From: an uncultured Desulfovibrio sp.
GTDB taxonomy: Bacteria > Desulfobacterota > Desulfovibrionia > Desulfovibrionales > Desulfovibrionaceae
Direction: 5' to 3'
Assembly: GCA_913060505.1 (NCBI GenBank)
Contig: CAJXRQ010000010.1
Coordinates: forward strand, 37,564 to 101,563
DNA: 64,000 nucleotides
Below the pieces are notes generated by a model. That model saw only the letters and a program-made list of their open reading frames with translations, was not told the DNA's origin and searched no databases. A program made the translations under genes and the position numbers. Every line of letters starts with the position of its first letter. Position 1 is the first letter of the stretch. This document shows positions 4,854-51,009 of the stretch, piece after piece.

Positions 4854-4884
4854 GTGTGTAGAGAGGAAAAGGCAGTGAAATTGT

Positions 4885-5919
4885 CTACAAATTGGCACCG
4901 GCGTCGGCGGGTTTTGTATGTCCTTTCATGGGTGAACCAAGGTTTTTCCTGAACCAATCGACAACCGTATCCGTAACCGGTTTCTGGAACCAGATTTGCG
5001 TACCGTGTTGCGCACCTTCCAGCACGATATAATCCGCCTGATTGCCGCCATCTTCAAGAGCGCGGTAGAGTTGTTCGCTCTGTTTCGGGGACACTCGCGT
5101 ATCCGCGTTGCCGTGCATGATCAAGAAGGGCGGCTTCTTACCCTGAACATGCCCCATGGGGCTGGCCGCCAAAGCTTTTTGGGGGTCACTCAGGATGGAG
5201 GCCCCGGCAAAGGAACCAAAAGCCGTGCCATGCACGAGTAACGCCTCAGTCACTGCCGGAGAAGCGTGGACCTTCTGGCTTTTTTCCGAAAATCCTTCGC
5301 CGATGGTCATCAGGTTGGAGATGCCGAAGAGGGTGCCGACAGCCTGAACATCTGATGATTTATCAAGAAATTGCCCTTTGTCGAAGGTTTTGTCTCCATT
5401 GGTGGTGCCGAGCATTTGGGCCACGTATCCGCCTGCGGAGTTGCCGAGCGCGCCAATACGTTTCGTATCGATTCCCAAATCTGCCGCATGTTCCCGCAGG
5501 TAGCGCACGGCGGATTTGCCGTCCTGCACCAGTGCCGGGAATTTGTATGGCACTGTCCGGTACTCGGCGGATGCGACCACAAATCCCGCCTCAGCCAAAG
5601 CCATGCGCAGCTCGCAGTATTTGCCGTGGTCCGAGGCCGTGAACCCGCCACCCGGAAAAAACACAATGGCGGGCTTGAGATCCTGCGTCCTGGGGATCAG
5701 CAGTGACATCTGCAACTGGCAGATTCCTGTGGTTCGGAATATCTGGGAGTATATGATCCCATCCATTGCGTCGATCTGGGGCCGGGTTATTTGCGTTTTC
5801 ATGATTTTGGCACCTTCCGTGTATCCCGTCAGGTTGGATTTTCCGGCAACGGCCTGTTTCGAACTCGTGAACAGAAAAAGTATTCCAAGAACGGCCAGAG
5901 ACAATATTTTCATATTCAT
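4885..5919 (-). CDS. secreted alpha/beta hydrolase (esterase/BD-FAE-like)
   Basis: 344 residues when started at ATG 5919, which has AAGGAG seven bases upstream; the track start 36 bases earlier lacks one. An N-terminal signal peptide (KILSLAVLGILFLF...AVAG) implies export. The alpha/beta hydrolase core is visible: oxyanion-hole FFPGGGFTASD, nucleophile elbow GNSAGG, acid in HGNADTRVSP and His in EGAQHGTQ. This resembles the BD-FAE / acetyl-esterase branch that deacylates sugars and similar esters. The strongest alternative is another carboxylesterase or peptidase-like hydrolase. It stands alone between two terminators, so context gives no substrate. Confidence 0.8.
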   Translation of the reverse strand: MNMKILSLAVLGILFLFTSSKQAVAGKSNLTGYTEGAKIMKTQITRPQIDAMDGIIYSQIFRTTGICQLQMSLLIPRTQDLKPAIVFFPGGGFTASDHGKYCELRMALAEAGFVVASAEYRTVPYKFPALVQDGKSAVRYLREHAADLGIDTKRIGALGNSAGGYVAQMLGTTNGDKTFDKGQFLDKSSDVQAVGTLFGISNLMTIGEGFSEKSQKVHASPAVTEALLVHGTAFGSFAGASILSDPQKALAASPMGHVQGKKPPFLIMHGNADTRVSPKQSEQLYRALEDGGNQADYIVLEGAQHGTQIWFQKPVTDTVVDWFRKNLGSPMKGHTKPADAGANL

Positions 5920-15533: not shown

Positions 15534-16877
15534 CTATTTGCACGGAGTGTTGCACCCGCAATAGGAGGTGCCACCCTGGCTGGTCCATTGCCCGTTCCAG
15601 CCGTTATGGGAGGCGCATGTTTTGGGGCACATCTCTTCCGCCTGTTTCTGGTTGAAAATGGGGCCGGCATTCTGGTCACAATAGCAGGCCGCGTCGTCGA
15701 GGTATTCGCTGGTGAACAGTTTTTTCATTGAGGAAACCCACCCGCGAGCATCATTTCCGAGGCTGAACATGATGGGAGAAACGGACTGCACCATGGCATA
15801 TATTTTCCTGTACATCTCATGGCTTGCCAACTCTTTGAACGCACTGGTCCTTGTCGGCATGAGGTATTGCGGCCCCTGGTCGCCATAAGGACCGAAGCAG
15901 TCCACAATGACTTTTGTGGAAGCCATCAGGTTGGCCAGCTGGATGGCCAAATCCGTTGTTTCGCGCTCTGCGGTTTTGGGGTGTATCCCGATGACGTCCG
16001 CATAGAACAGCGGTTTTTCTATTCCGGTCTTGTTATCGCCCCAGAGCATGGTTCTGCAGGAGATATTGGCATATTGATCAGAAGGGATGCGGGAAAGGGA
16101 TTCTGTAAATCCGATATAGGCATTTCCGTGGTTCTCCCCGAACCATGTGCCACGTTGGTAGGAATCCTCCGTCGAGGCCAGAACGTTTTTAAAGCTGGAC
16201 ATGGCTATGACCTGGCGAATATAGCCGACAACATCCTGATCTATTTCTTTCTTGCTGATGGGCAGCGGAACCGGGAATTTTGCCAGTTTGCACTCAAGAC
16301 CCTGCACGTAGTATCCAGCGTTGCTTGAACCGCTGGAAAAATCGGCCATCAGTCCCGTATTGGCGGGAGGTATTTGATCATAGAATGTGCATGTGCCGAG
16401 GGTCTTGACGACCTCGGAAAGAGTTTGCGCCTGTGCCAGAGCCGTGTTGTCCGAATGATAGAAGAGCACAGTGGTGCAGCCGAGCTGTGGAAGGCCGAGG
16501 ACGTTATCGCCGCTTGCGATCCCGGCAGCCGCCCACGGAAGAAAATCGCTGAAGTTGTCCACTTGCGCCTTAGGGATTTTGTGAAGATACCCTTGCGCAT
16601 TGAATTGATTCAGGAACATGGCGTCGAATACGAAGAGATCGTAATCGGGTGAGGGATCAATGCCGTACCCCCCGTCCCATTTTTTGTAGTCAGTCACCCA
16701 CTCAATGGGCTCGGTATGCGTTTCCGCCCATGCCTTCGTGATTACCTGCTTGAATTGTTCGACGCGCGGAACATAGGGATAGAGGGCAACTTTCAGGCTT
16801 TTGGCAAAGACACTGCTGGAAAGCAGCAAGGTAAGCAATACGCCGAAAATAAGTGCAAGATGCTGTCTTTTTTTCAT
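15534..16877 (-). CDS. secreted thiaminase I (thiamine pyridinylase) with C-terminal MVL-lectin-like domain
   Basis: 447 residues, start supported by AGGAG. Signal peptide (LIFGVLLTLLLSSSVFA). The body matches thiaminase I in order: VALYPYVPRVEQF, YDLFVFDAMFL, GLPQLGCTTVLFY (Cys134 at the nucleophile position), DQIPPANTGLM, RGTWFGENHGNAYIGFTES (Glu259 at the catalytic-base position), PLFYADVIGIHPKTA, QYLMPTR and FSLGNDARGW. The enzyme cleaves thiamine by replacing its thiazole with another base. Residues about 398-447 form an extra Cys-rich module, NAGPIFNQKQAEEMCP and GWNGQWTSQGGTSYCGC, resembling the repeat of Microcystis viridis mannan-binding lectin (AGPLW..AEAQ..GP..FTGQW). It has no thiamine genes beside it; a partial second copy lies upstream. 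Confidence 0.85.
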   Translation of the reverse strand: MKKRQHLALIFGVLLTLLLSSSVFAKSLKVALYPYVPRVEQFKQVITKAWAETHTEPIEWVTDYKKWDGGYGIDPSPDYDLFVFDAMFLNQFNAQGYLHKIPKAQVDNFSDFLPWAAAGIASGDNVLGLPQLGCTTVLFYHSDNTALAQAQTLSEVVKTLGTCTFYDQIPPANTGLMADFSSGSSNAGYYVQGLECKLAKFPVPLPISKKEIDQDVVGYIRQVIAMSSFKNVLASTEDSYQRGTWFGENHGNAYIGFTESLSRIPSDQYANISCRTMLWGDNKTGIEKPLFYADVIGIHPKTAERETTDLAIQLANLMASTKVIVDCFGPYGDQGPQYLMPTRTSAFKELASHEMYRKIYAMVQSVSPIMFSLGNDARGWVSSMKKLFTSEYLDDAACYCDQNAGPIFNQKQAEEMCPKTCASHNGWNGQWTSQGGTSYCGCNTPCK

Positions 16878-17056
16878 GATCTTCTCCTGTCATGAATTGT
16901 TTGACCCGCTCCCCTGCAAACACATGATTCTCCTGTCGTATCGATAACACTTTTTAACTATAAGTAAACTGTATTTTGAACGTTTGGTTGAAAAAAATAC
17001 CATGTGCCGTTCAATGTCGATATGAACTGTCTAGTATGGTAAAACTGCCGGAATAT

Positions 17057-17088
17057 GGGAAAGAGCCCGCCTTGGCGGACCCTTTCCC
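17057..17088 (-). terminator. hairpin 3' of the thiaminase fragment
   Basis: GGGAAAG-agc-CCGCC-tt-GGCGG-acc-CTTTCCC, a two-part stem. It is similar in placement to the terminator after the full thiaminase gene, which suggests that the whole 3' unit was duplicated. Confidence 0.5.
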
Positions 17089-17104
17089 TTGGTTTGTCAA
17101 TCTT

Positions 17105-17352
17105 TGATTGAATCATCGTTGCATGGTTTCCGGACGTATTTCAATGATATCCGTGTAGAACAAGGGTTGTTGTATGCCCGCCAAAACGTTGCCCCACGGC
17201 ATAACCTTGCAGGCTATGTTTGCATATTGGTCGGGTGGAATACGGGAAAGGAATTCCGTGAATCCGATGTTGGCCCTGCCATACCCTTTTCCGAACCATT
17301 CGCCGCGCTGGTAGGGGATTTCGGAACGGCACAAAATGTTTTCAAGACTTGA
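17105..17352 (-). pseudogene. fragment of a second thiaminase I gene
   Basis: Minus-strand translation SSLENILCRSEIPYQRGEWF and GYGRANIGFTEFLSRIPPDQ, then YANIACKVMPWG and PLFYTDIIEIRPETMQR, aligns with residues about 227-305 of the neighbouring thiaminase I (SSFKNVLASTEDSYQRGTWF...). It stops at TGA after PETMQR. The N-terminal half with the nucleophilic Cys and the C-terminal part are absent, so it cannot be a working enzyme. A GTGCGA-N4-TCGCAC palindrome lies directly at its upstream boundary (17354-17369). Confidence 0.8.
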
Positions 17353-17353
17353 T

Positions 17354-17369
17354 GTGCGATTCTTCGCAC
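17354..17369. repeat. palindrome GTGCGA-TTCT-TCGCAC
   Basis: Perfect 6-bp arms with a 4-base centre. The arms are identical to the first palindrome of the IclR operators at 2920 and 4184, but the spacer is one base shorter and the second palindrome is missing. It sits at the edge of the thiaminase fragment. Confidence 0.4.
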
Positions 17370-17472
17370 GTGTGGGCGAAAGTCTTTACGTATTGCTGTC
17401 TCCCTGGCGCAGATGGAGTATTCGCTTTTGGAATATTCTGTGGAATTTCAGAAAAAATAAGCGGGAAAATCG

Positions 17473-18519
17473 TTACATCATTTGCAACTTGCGGGAACAG
17501 ATGGGGCAATGCTGATCCGCAGACAGAGCTGCAGATTTGGCATTGCAGCGGCGGCAACGTCCGATAGTCCCACTGAACAATGTGACTGATGCTGTTGATG
17601 CGGCTGTTTCGAGCGTGGCTTCCGCGCGCTCCAGAAAACCGGTGCGGCATACCCGGAGGCAGGAACCGCAATCCATACAGAGCATGCTTTTGAACGTGAG
17701 CGAACAGGAGTTGCCATCCTCTTTAATGGACAATGCGTTGGTAGGACATATCCGTACACAGGCTGCACAGGCTGTGCACGTCCCATTGCCTTGGATATTT
17801 CCCGCTACAAAATCTTTGGGGAGCGGTCCGCTTGCTTTCAGTTCTTTCAACAACGTCGCAAGATGTGTTCTTTTGTTTTCGGATGCGGCGGGAGCAGATT
17901 TTGCTGTCTGGGGTTCGGTATGTGCAGCGGATTCCCTGCCCCTGAACATACCGAGAAAATCCCTGCGGGAAACTGTATGCCCGTGAGACTGTTTTTCTGG
18001 TGAGTCGATCCGCGAGGCTCTGCAGACAACAGTAAAAGGCGTTGTTTCAGAGGCGACGGCGGAATTGGCTATAATGGCGTTGGCCTGTTTGGCCGCTTGG
18101 TGGATCGCGGTGCCGCTATCTCCTTGTTTGCAGCTACCGCAATCCCCGCAGACCAGAGTGATGGCTTTCCTGTTCATGAGCCAAAGCTCAAGCAGAATAT
18201 CCACCCCCAGGCCTGCGAGGCATGCCCGAAAGGGCATTTCGGTATCCACTCCCTTGTGAGCGGAAGGGCAAAGGAGGATCTCAGGGCACTTACCTTTTTT
18301 CCTCAATTGCCTGAGCAGCGAGTCACAGGTCGGGAGGGCGAGCGCCCCGGATGGGCACACAGAGGCGCACGCCCCGCAATCCCGACAGACTTCGGCCCTG
18401 ATGGCGGGGCCGTCATGGAGGAGTATGGCTTCCGAAGGACAGACCGTTAAACACCTGCCGCAACTGCCCCCGAGCGTTTCGGGGCACAAGGAGTTGTTCA
18501 CGACAAGTGTTCGGTGCAT
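17473..18519 (-). CDS. polyferredoxin with two dicluster modules (NapF-like) in the DMSO-reductase-type operon
   Basis: 348 residues. The N-terminal module has two [4Fe-4S] motifs (GGSCGRCLTVCPSEAI; CRDCGACASVCPSGAL). A middle segment is rich in Cys (CGDCGSC). A second ferredoxin pair lies near residues 250-310 (CTACAACVRICPTNAL; CMDCGSCLRVCRTGF), and the tail has a CxxC...CxxC zinc-ribbon or rubredoxin-like pair (CRRCN, CPICSRK). An internal SRRDFLGMF sequence near residue 190 looks like a twin-arginine motif but is not N-terminal. It is the last gene of the dmsABC-like operon, 8 bases after the TorD-like chaperone. Probably a cytoplasmic accessory protein for maturation of, or electron supply to, the molybdoenzyme, as NapF is for NapA. 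Confidence 0.8.
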   Translation of the reverse strand: MHRTLVVNNSLCPETLGGSCGRCLTVCPSEAILLHDGPAIRAEVCRDCGACASVCPSGALALPTCDSLLRQLRKKGKCPEILLCPSAHKGVDTEMPFRACLAGLGVDILLELWLMNRKAITLVCGDCGSCKQGDSGTAIHQAAKQANAIIANSAVASETTPFTVVCRASRIDSPEKQSHGHTVSRRDFLGMFRGRESAAHTEPQTAKSAPAASENKRTHLATLLKELKASGPLPKDFVAGNIQGNGTCTACAACVRICPTNALSIKEDGNSCSLTFKSMLCMDCGSCLRVCRTGFLERAEATLETAASTASVTLFSGTIGRCRRCNAKSAALSADQHCPICSRKLQMM

Positions 18520-31718: not shown

Positions 31719-32522
31719 CTATTTGGCATCACCGAACGGCAAAGAGGTGGGAGACGCCCCAAGCCGGAGAGAAATACGTGTTGCGGCACGCGTTATGTTC
31801 TGTTCAATGCTCTTGCAGGTCGTTTCGTTCAAACGCACGGTGGGAGCTGAAACGCTTATGGTGGCCACAAGCCTGCCCTGAAAATCCAAGAGCGGGACAG
31901 CCATGCAGCGTACTCCTTTAAAGACTTCCTCGTAGTCATAGGCACGTCCGGTTCGGCGGACTTCTTCCAGCTCCACCTGCAATTCCTTTATGATTCGATC
32001 CAGATCCTGCAGCTGGCTTTGCTCGCGAATGAGGTGCAGTACCTTTTCAGCTTCCTCCGGTTGGGCAAAAGCAAGAAATATTTTCCCTGATGCGGATTGA
32101 AACAAGGGAAACGAACTGCCGATAATGGAATCCTGCCGAAGCATCTGCGATGTCACTTCCTTGTGCACAACAAGCATTTCCGTGCCTGACGCCACGCACA
32201 AATTAACGGTTTCATCCACCGCTTCCTGCAGTTCCCGGCAGTATGGTTTTGCCACATCCACAAAGCTGGAATGCTGCAATACCCGGCTGCCAATGGAAAA
32301 CAGCTTGTAAGTGAGGCTGTACTCCCCACGCTCCGTTTCCTGAAAAACATATCCACTGTCTCCCAGAGTCAGAAGCATGCGATGTACGGTTGTCTTGGGC
32401 AAATTCATTGCCCGGCTCAGGTCGGCAAGTTCCCATGATTGCTTGGTCGACAGCTTTTCGATCAACCTGCATACTTTCGTAATAGCGCTTATTTCATAGT
32501 ATTTTTTTGTGGTTTTGGGCAT
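31719..32522 (-). CDS. IclR-family transcriptional regulator (amino-acid oxidation cluster)
   Basis: 267 residues from ATG 32522, preceded by AAAGGGAG; the track's start is 78 bases earlier. The winged helix-turn-helix (about 10-75: ELADLSRAMNLPKTTVHRMLLTL) is followed by the IclR ligand domain (ETVNLCVASGTEMLVVHKE, FPLFQSASGKIFLAFAQPEE, GRAYDYEEVFKGVRCMAVPL). It is divergent from the 2-oxoacid oxidoreductase operon and separated from it by about 600 bases that contain a promoter with a perfect 15-bp palindrome. Probably regulates that catabolic operon in response to its substrate. Confidence 0.9.
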   Translation of the reverse strand: MPKTTKKYYEISAITKVCRLIEKLSTKQSWELADLSRAMNLPKTTVHRMLLTLGDSGYVFQETERGEYSLTYKLFSIGSRVLQHSSFVDVAKPYCRELQEAVDETVNLCVASGTEMLVVHKEVTSQMLRQDSIIGSSFPLFQSASGKIFLAFAQPEEAEKVLHLIREQSQLQDLDRIIKELQVELEEVRRTGRAYDYEEVFKGVRCMAVPLLDFQGRLVATISVSAPTVRLNETTCKSIEQNITRAATRISLRLGASPTSLPFGDAK

Positions 32523-32847
32523 CGGGACTCCCTTTTTAGTTTTTTGAATATTCAATTTTCGATAAAAGACAATCTTAAGGGAAAAAAGCTGGAAGGGCAA
32601 TAGTTCGGAATGGCGTTCCGAAATTTGCGGGTGAGGGGGCCAAGTTGGTACATTCGGTTTAACTGCGAATCAGTGTTTGGTCTAACGGCAGTAATATGTT
32701 TTTGAAATTCTGAAACAGGTGACAAATATCAATAAAGAGTTTTTATAACAGTTTTCTACTTAATTTGGGTGGCGGCCCGAAAATTCCCTTTCTGTCCTGT
32801 CTGCATATACAAAATAAATCCGGACAACTGACCGCATCGTATCAATC

Positions 32848-32915
32848 CAAAACAAAACGCACTCCCCTTGGCAAGCAGGCCTGGCCGCTTGCCAAGGGGA
32901 GTGCGTTTTGTTTTG
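32848..32915. repeat. perfect 29-bp inverted repeat, terminator-like
   Basis: CAAAACAAAACGCACTCCCC (arm continues TTGGCAAGC) is followed by a 10-base loop AGGCCTGGCC and the exact reverse complement, ending GCGTTTTGTTTTG. It has T-rich tails on both strands. There is no annotated gene 5' of it on the plus strand; it lies about 200 bases before the start codon of the oxidoreductase operon and upstream of that operon's promoter. Confidence 0.8.
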
Positions 32916-33008
32916 AATTCAAAATGTTTGTTTATACAAAAATGTCATAAAAATAATCCAATATTACAGTATTTTGCGAGAATAATACACTTGTGTGCAT
33001 TTTTCATG

Positions 33009-33037
33009 TTGACAGGCTGAATTTCTATCGATTAGAT
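33009..33037 (+). promoter_or_regulatory. sigma-70-type promoter of the oxidoreductase operon
   Basis: TTGACA, a 17-base spacer, then TTAGAT, about 95 bases before the first start codon and downstream of the large inverted repeat. Confidence 0.6.
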
Positions 33038-33060
33038 TTATTGGCAATAACGGTACGCCA

Positions 33061-33075
33061 TACCGCAATGCGGTA
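33061..33075. promoter_or_regulatory. operator palindrome TACCGCA-A-TGCGGTA
   Basis: Perfect 7-bp arms around one base, starting 24 bases after the -10 element. A partial overlapping repeat GGTA-cgcca-TACC precedes it (33052-33064). A position inside the transcribed start region fits repression by the divergent IclR protein. Confidence 0.55.
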
Positions 33076-33129
33076 CGCACTGAAAAGCATTTCTGAACGC
33101 CGAGACTTTTAACTTTGTGAGGAGCCAGA

Positions 33130-34200
33130 ATGAAAGAAACACTGTTTTTGAAAAACACGGAAGCGTTTGCCGAAAGCATGATACGTTGCGGCATTCGCGG
33201 CCATTTCGCCTATCCCATTACCCCGGCTACGGACGTTATGAAGTACACGGCCCGTAAGCTTCCGGAGGTCGGTGGACGCATGGTGCAGATGGAAAGCGAG
33301 CTGGCCGTATCAAATGCCTTGGCCGGCTATGCATGTGCAGGCAAGCTGGGAGCCACCTCCACTTCCGGTCCCGGCATGACTCTGATGCAGGAAGCCATCG
33401 GCTTCATGGCTGCGGGAGAATTGCCCTGTATTATGCTCGACGCCATGCGCGTCGGCCCTGGGGATGGCGATATCATCGGTGCGCAGAGCACTTATTATCA
33501 GGCTACCCGCGGTGGCGCGCACGGCGATTACCGAGTCATTGTCCTTGCTCCCTCCTGTGGACAAGAAATCGTCGAATTGATGCCCGTCGGCATCAAATTG
33601 TCCTTGACCTATCGCAACCCGGTTCTCTTCGTGGTCGATGGAGTCACCTGCCAAATGACTGAAACCACCACCTTCGACGATCCTTACGACTATACGGCGG
33701 ATTTTGACACTTCCGACTGGAGTTACACCGGAGCTGATGACCACTCGAAGCGCTTCCTGCTGACTGGCAGCTATACCCATGAGCAGGGTTACGAAATGAA
33801 CGAGCGCATGCGTAGAAAGTATGAGGAAATCACGGAAAAAGAGCAGCGTTGGGAGCAGGTGGAAGTGGATGATGCAGAGGTCCTGGTTGTGGCCTTCGGT
33901 ATCCATGGCCGCATGTGCAAGGATCTTGTTGCCAACTTCCGCAATGAAGGCAAGCGCGTGGGCTTTATCCGGCCTATTTCGTTGTGGCCTTTCCCGAATA
34001 AGGCATTTGAGAACATCCCGTCCTCGGTCAAATCCATCCTTGTCGTGGAGATGAACCATGGTCAGATGGTCGACGATGTGCGTTTGGCCGTGAATGGCAG
34101 GGTTCCGGTGCACTTTTTGGGCAAGACGGGTGGCGACATTCCCATGTGCACATTGGCGGAGATGTCCTGCGAAGTAAGCAAATTGCTTGAGGGAGAATAG
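33130..34200 (+). CDS. 2-oxoacid:ferredoxin oxidoreductase, alpha subunit (KorA/VorB-like)
   Basis: 356 residues, the VorB/KorA size. N-terminal pyrimidine-type domain (ITPATDVMKYTARKL, QMESELAVSNALAGYACAGKLGATSTSGPGMTLMQEAIGFMAAGELP) and C-terminal domain (VLVVAFGIHGRMCKDLVANFRNEGKRVGFIRPISLWPFP). With beta, gamma and delta subunits encoded directly after it, the complex decarboxylates a 2-oxo acid with CoA and ferredoxin to an acyl-CoA. The subunit size matches the branched-chain or 2-oxoglutarate types better than fused pyruvate enzymes. The actual 2-oxo acid probably comes from the amino-acid dehydrogenase in the same cluster. GTGAGGAG precedes ATG. Confidence 0.92.
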   Translation: MKETLFLKNTEAFAESMIRCGIRGHFAYPITPATDVMKYTARKLPEVGGRMVQMESELAVSNALAGYACAGKLGATSTSGPGMTLMQEAIGFMAAGELPCIMLDAMRVGPGDGDIIGAQSTYYQATRGGAHGDYRVIVLAPSCGQEIVELMPVGIKLSLTYRNPVLFVVDGVTCQMTETTTFDDPYDYTADFDTSDWSYTGADDHSKRFLLTGSYTHEQGYEMNERMRRKYEEITEKEQRWEQVEVDDAEVLVVAFGIHGRMCKDLVANFRNEGKRVGFIRPISLWPFPNKAFENIPSSVKSILVVEMNHGQMVDDVRLAVNGRVPVHFLGKTGGDIPMCTLAEMSCEVSKLLEGE

Positions 34201-50696: not shown

Positions 50697-51009
50697 TTGT
50701 CAGTTTTCCTATTCAAAAAAGCGCAACAGCCGGCAGGAGTACTCCTGGAATGAGCTTTTCGTGCCTTGTCGCTTGTGTTTTATGGTAAATCGGGCGGAAA
50801 ATTGCGAAAACATGAGCAGAGCCTTCCAAAGAACCTCTTTGGAAGGCTCTGCTCATGTTGCGTTTTTTTCTCATTGGCAGAATCCGGTTTCCGGCTTGAA
50901 GAAAACCGGAGAAAAGGGGATGGCCAAGGGCATAAAAGCGTTAAATCGCCTGTCTGTAAAGTGGTTGGAATGTTTCTTTAGGAAAAAGTTCGTGAGTGTA
51001 TGGAGAAGG
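50697..51009. other. intergenic region with a 24-bp inverted repeat
   Basis: 313 bases between the MFS gene start and the IclR gene end, both on the minus strand. Apart from the hairpin at 50809-50859 I see no gene; the ORFs in it have no ribosome site. The promoter of the MFS gene should be within the left 110 bases. Confidence 0.5.
50809..50859. terminator. perfect 24-bp inverted repeat, terminator-like
   Basis: AACATGAGCAGAGCCTTCCA plus AAGA, a 3-base loop ACC, and the exact reverse complement, then GCGTTTTTTTC on the plus strand. It lies about 150 bases 3' of the IclR gene (minus strand), whose terminator it may be, but the better T-tract is on the plus strand, where no gene precedes it. 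Confidence 0.65.

Follow-up and report, generated by a model that had tools for sequence, protein, structure and literature searches.

A 29-bp perfect inverted repeat between divergent iclR and vorB-like genes of an uncultured Desulfovibrio sp. is a candidate bidirectional intrinsic terminator

The gap between an IclR-family regulator gene and a vorB-like gene in an uncultured Desulfovibrio sp. (GCA_913060505.1, contig CAJXRQ010000010.1, 37,564-101,563; the whole 64-kb stretch analysed is hereafter the window, and its positions are used throughout) harbors a perfect 29-bp inverted repeat. With somewhat better than even confidence, we read its sequence as that of an unusually long bidirectional intrinsic (Rho-independent) terminator, which would most likely block stray transcription, i.e. 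act as an insulator. RNA polymerase arriving from either side would form a core hairpin, GC-rich and about 18 bp long, then transcribe UUUUGUUUUG and stop, and the outer A/T tract pairs would let one element serve the opposite strand too. In an insulator role, the element would keep stray or antisense transcription from crossing the divergent regulatory region. The assembly holding the window comprises 3.16 Mb in 51 contigs and is 81% complete; an assembly artefact is thought unlikely as the source of the hairpin, because synteny runs on at both of its sides.

The hairpin and its counterparts in the same genome

The left arm (32848-32876) consists of the A-tract CAAAACAAAAC followed by a GC-rich core, and the right arm (32887-32915) leads from the GC-rich core into the T-tract TTTTGTTTTG. 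Between them lies the 10-nt loop AGGCCTGGCC (32877-32886), in which a GGC/GCC pair gives three extra base pairs above a bulged A. The 29-bp exact arms and 10-base loop of the original prediction were thus found as described, and the arms reach 33 nt (32844/32919) when one mismatch is allowed (97%). The T-rich flanks that it reported on both strands do exist as T-tracts on both strands, but TTTTGTTTTG belongs to the arms, forming their outer ends in pairing with the A-tracts, instead of lying outside the stem. Its judgement that the repeat is too strong for chance was borne out, as the hairpin RNA has a minimum free energy of -60.2 kcal/mol (z -12.4), where shuffled sequences average -22.5, and perfect stems longer than 12 bp were absent from a 460-kb Markov control, which places a 29-bp stem far beyond chance.

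With CAAAACAAAAC and GTTTTGTTTTG at the arm ends, either strand reads a GC-rich core and then TTTTGTTTTG, and the T-tract score (d'Aubenton-Carafa-type) is 4.41 for transcripts of either strand. Because the T-tracts are equally good on both strands, the element reads as a bidirectional terminator; an automatic terminator scan called it on the - strand only. Its T-tract score exceeds those of all but one of the other scored hairpins in the window (2.0-5.1, better strand). Both a stable GC-rich stem-loop and a T-tract right after the core stem, the latter on both strands, are thus present. Against the terminator reading, the stem is far longer than needed, and the T-tract carries one interrupting G and is itself base-paired inside the stem. 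Among intrinsic terminators, those located between divergent genes form an established class that has been mapped in Zymomonas mobilis, and bidirectional ones are expected to carry A-tracts (PMC7566282). The present hairpin resembles bidirectional intrinsic terminators in its GC-rich stem, 5' A-tract and 3' T-tract, equal on both strands, whereas its 29-bp perfect stem and the T-tract within that stem set it apart; moreover, it has no known transcript ending at it and, unlike usual bidirectional terminators, is bordered by divergent instead of convergent genes.

About 864 kb (27%) of the genome, drawn from five contigs, were surveyed for hairpins, and 43 perfect stems of at least 12 bp were found. 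The upper tail of their lengths was 29 (the hairpin studied), 26, 25, 24, 24, 21, 20, and 18 bp, so that the hairpin is the longest perfect stem within the 864 kb surveyed. Many long stems are built alike from an A-tract, a GC core and a T-tract, for example the 25-bp ccatgaaaacaaaaagagccgcagc and the 26-bp gcaatcttgaaaataaaaagggccgc, and many similar hairpins mark gene ends in this genome, a further likeness to terminators. Gene calls were made by a simple script, either with a hexamer-based (coding-potential) caller or as cruder longest-ORF calls. According to the hexamer-based caller, 20 of the other 42 stems occupy convergent gaps, 21 occupy in-line gaps, both usual sites of terminators, and one lies inside a called gene. 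None of the other long stems in the 864 kb falls in a divergent gap, although divergent gaps make up 91 of the 406. The longest-ORF caller placed five other stems in divergent gaps, and the rarity of stems at such sites consequently depends on gene calling. The hairpin itself was scored as inside a called gene owing to a 61-codon TTG-start ORF (32765-32950, +) that spans it; this ORF, whose hexamer score of 10.5 is marginally positive and for which inspection by eye showed no ribosome site, was judged spurious. The hairpin is accordingly the extreme of an ordinary class and not a new kind of object, and only its placement is odd.

A second possible orphan terminator was noticed at 50809-50859, where 24 bp pair perfectly around a 3-nt loop and T7 follows on the + strand (T-tract score 5.1). 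It sits between - strand genes, for which its T-tract is wrong-facing.

Promoters and putative operators around the hairpin

The IclR-family regulator gene (31719-32525, - strand, start about 32523; PF01614, PF09339) and the gene for a VorB-like 2-oxoacid:acceptor oxidoreductase alpha subunit (33130-34200, + strand; NF005507, PF01855, PF17147) both face away from the hairpin across a gap of 604 bp, in agreement with the original prediction that no gene ends there. Placement downstream of a transcribed unit, as for a terminator, is not seen, as no recognisable gene ends toward the hairpin. The VorB-like protein reaches 390.5 bits against NF005507, slightly below the cut-off of 399, and its gene is the first of an operon that continues with the beta and gamma subunits and then an acyl-CoA-ligase-like gene.

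For promoter scoring, an E. coli-type matrix was used, with shuffled sequence as background. The vor operon promoter TTGACA-N18-TAGATT (33009-33038, +) scored 12.9 against a shuffled 95th percentile of 12.9, being the sole promoter-like site to reach the upper range of the background, and its TTGACA is conserved in the related genomes G021, G033, and G011. The probable iclR promoter TTGCCC-N17-TAAGAT (32572-32600, -) is the top - strand site, yet by score alone it does not rise above shuffled background; it is supported by alignment with G033 (TTGCCC-N17-TACGAT). A probable IclR operator, CGGAATGGCGTTCCG (32606-32620), adjoins the iclR -35 box, and G033 has CGGTACGCCATTCCG at the aligned position. 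Directly past the vor promoter, a second probable operator, CGGTACGCCATACCG running into CCGCAATGCGGTAC (33051-33076), is kept in G021 and G033 and less so in G011. The 15-bp palindromic motif CGGWACGNYATWCCG has exactly two mismatch-free sites in the 64-kb window, 32606-32620 and 33051-33065; it was built from these two sites, so that both match by construction and the informative part is that there is no third. We consider this pair to be probably IclR operators. Written as CGGWACGCCATWCCG, the palindromic motif is present in two copies flanking the divergent gap, and G033 carries a further copy, CGGTACGCTATACCG, mid-gap and close to where the hairpin would align.

From these positions, the hairpin lies outside both transcripts and between two promoter-operator blocks, the promoters of which point outward. 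A leader attenuator was dismissed, as both probable promoters lie beyond the hairpin and face away from it.

Distribution among related genomes

The original prediction had called for a search for other copies in the genome, and the own-genome search returned the hairpin as a single copy. Its core arm was not over-represented among 36 genus genomes, where it matched no more often than a control, and the best genus match was 19 nt in G002, a lone arm lacking its partner. No match to the core arm was found in viral contigs, nor any match to the surrounding 300 bp of the hairpin in phages and plasmids. The hairpin is an intergenic palindrome like dispersed REP/MITE-type elements, but differs from them in being a single copy with neither genome nor genus relatives and no adjoining target-site duplication. 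A dispersed repeat (REP/MITE) or an IS end was rejected on the single own-genome copy and the negative genus, phage, plasmid, and viral scans. An insertion with target-site duplication was also rejected, as the sole flanking repeat is the 9-nt TATACAAAA at 32806 and 32933, which is set back from the arms and consistent with chance, and the sequence of relatives is no shorter at this place.

The sister species G021 and G033 (IclR 73-79% and VorB 90-92% identical) retain the divergent iclR-vor arrangement, and the vor promoter and vor operator are conserved in both. At 776 and 765 bp, the corresponding intergenic regions are about 160-170 bp longer and contain no comparable hairpin, and sequence conservation of 32627-32900 is absent in relatives. 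Absence from related strains, one of the two observations that the original prediction had set against its own reading, is hence the finding at sister-species level. Because the hairpin is missing from genomes that keep the arrangement, the promoter and the operator, the comparison of sequences indicates that it is a lineage-specific addition, neither conserved regulation nor a dispersed repeat. By the same token, insulation is not a conserved need at this locus. Perfect stems of 20-23 bp were found in three sister species.

In G011 (C10, 120001-140000, L123), the iclR orthologue (4872-5672) forms the 3' end of the conserved operon and is co-oriented with it, instead of standing divergently upstream of vorB (16492-17559). 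As it occupies the far end of the operon there, iclR has moved during the evolution of the genus. No such hairpin occurs close upstream of vorB in G011, and an ordinary terminator with a 10-bp stem and a T6 tract is located about 800 bp upstream of it. A contig scan of genomes returned a single MAG (Desulfobulbaceae) with an IclR 69% identical and another gene arrangement, and its iclR locus contains no inverted repeat. There, iclR (L068 1876-2649) is preceded by an MFS transporter gene of the same orientation.

Alternative explanations and significance

We also considered that the hairpin terminates an unannotated short transcript, either on the + strand (about 32750-32915) or on the - strand from the right of 32915, or is a relic of such a gene. 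The other long stems of the genome are mostly at transcript ends, so an orphan stem suggests a transcript, and a weak + promoter-like site, GTGACA-N19-TATAAC, is present at 32719-32749. That site, however, scores 8.2, below the shuffled mean best of 10.1; neither 32625-32847 (z +0.5) nor 32916-33130 shows excess structure; the unconserved 32627-32900 also speaks against this reading, and no credible ORF was found. All matches to Rfam families stayed below the gathering score and were mostly to microRNA precursors, as expected for any long perfect hairpin. An upstream promoter and a conserved or structured body, as for a small RNA gene, were thus not found, and we regard a transcript of this kind as unlikely. 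The small RNA that the original prediction had placed at about 32620-32915 fails on the same promoter, Rfam, structure, and conservation results. A scar of a deleted gene, likewise offered there, has no positive support, as no gene was seen in the gaps of G021 and G033 although they are longer. The insulation of the two promoters that it also offered, taken here as terminator or insulator, fits best, given the equal T-tracts, the gene-end build and the outward promoters.

That the hairpin is instead a functionless leftover, produced by a template-switching inverted duplication or by a small mobile element whose ends became joined, we hold to be improbable. It is species-specific and single-copy, and its perfect arms suggest a recent origin, yet no second copy or second arm exists in the genome, genus hits to the core arm did not exceed control, the phage, plasmid, and viral-contig scans gave no match, and no target-site duplication adjoins the arms. 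Only marginally less probable would be an action as DNA, in which a cruciform extruded under negative supercoiling in the stretch between the divergent promoters would relieve this supercoiling or modulate the promoters or IclR binding. The perfect 29-bp arm, the 10-nt loop and the position roughly midway between the probable IclR operators (32613 and about 33060) are consistent with it, and an enrichment of inverted repeats with cruciform potential has been reported for some promoter regions of E. coli, with unclear function (PMC6060812). The present repeat shares with those a perfect inverted repeat, a short spacer and a location in a divergent promoter region, whereas it differs in its T/A-tract terminator design, which terminators need and cruciforms do not, and in lying over neither promoter; extrusion here is hypothetical. 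In addition, the hairpin is missing in relatives that share the divergent arrangement. Returning to the bidirectional terminator, we may speculate, with very little confidence, that a lineage-specific terminator set between divergent promoters serves an IclR-controlled 2-oxoacid oxidoreductase operon as a dedicated transcriptional insulator or a switch sensitive to supercoiling, with the two putative IclR operators of the operon on either side of the terminator.

For understanding the regulation of the vor operon, the conserved operator pair is probably more useful than the hairpin. If it does not terminate transcription, the hairpin would be an ordinary genome feature. If it does, it would represent a clean, natural and very strong two-way terminator upstream of divergent promoters, a setting in which this genome rarely has long perfect stems, and may provide a compact insulator part.
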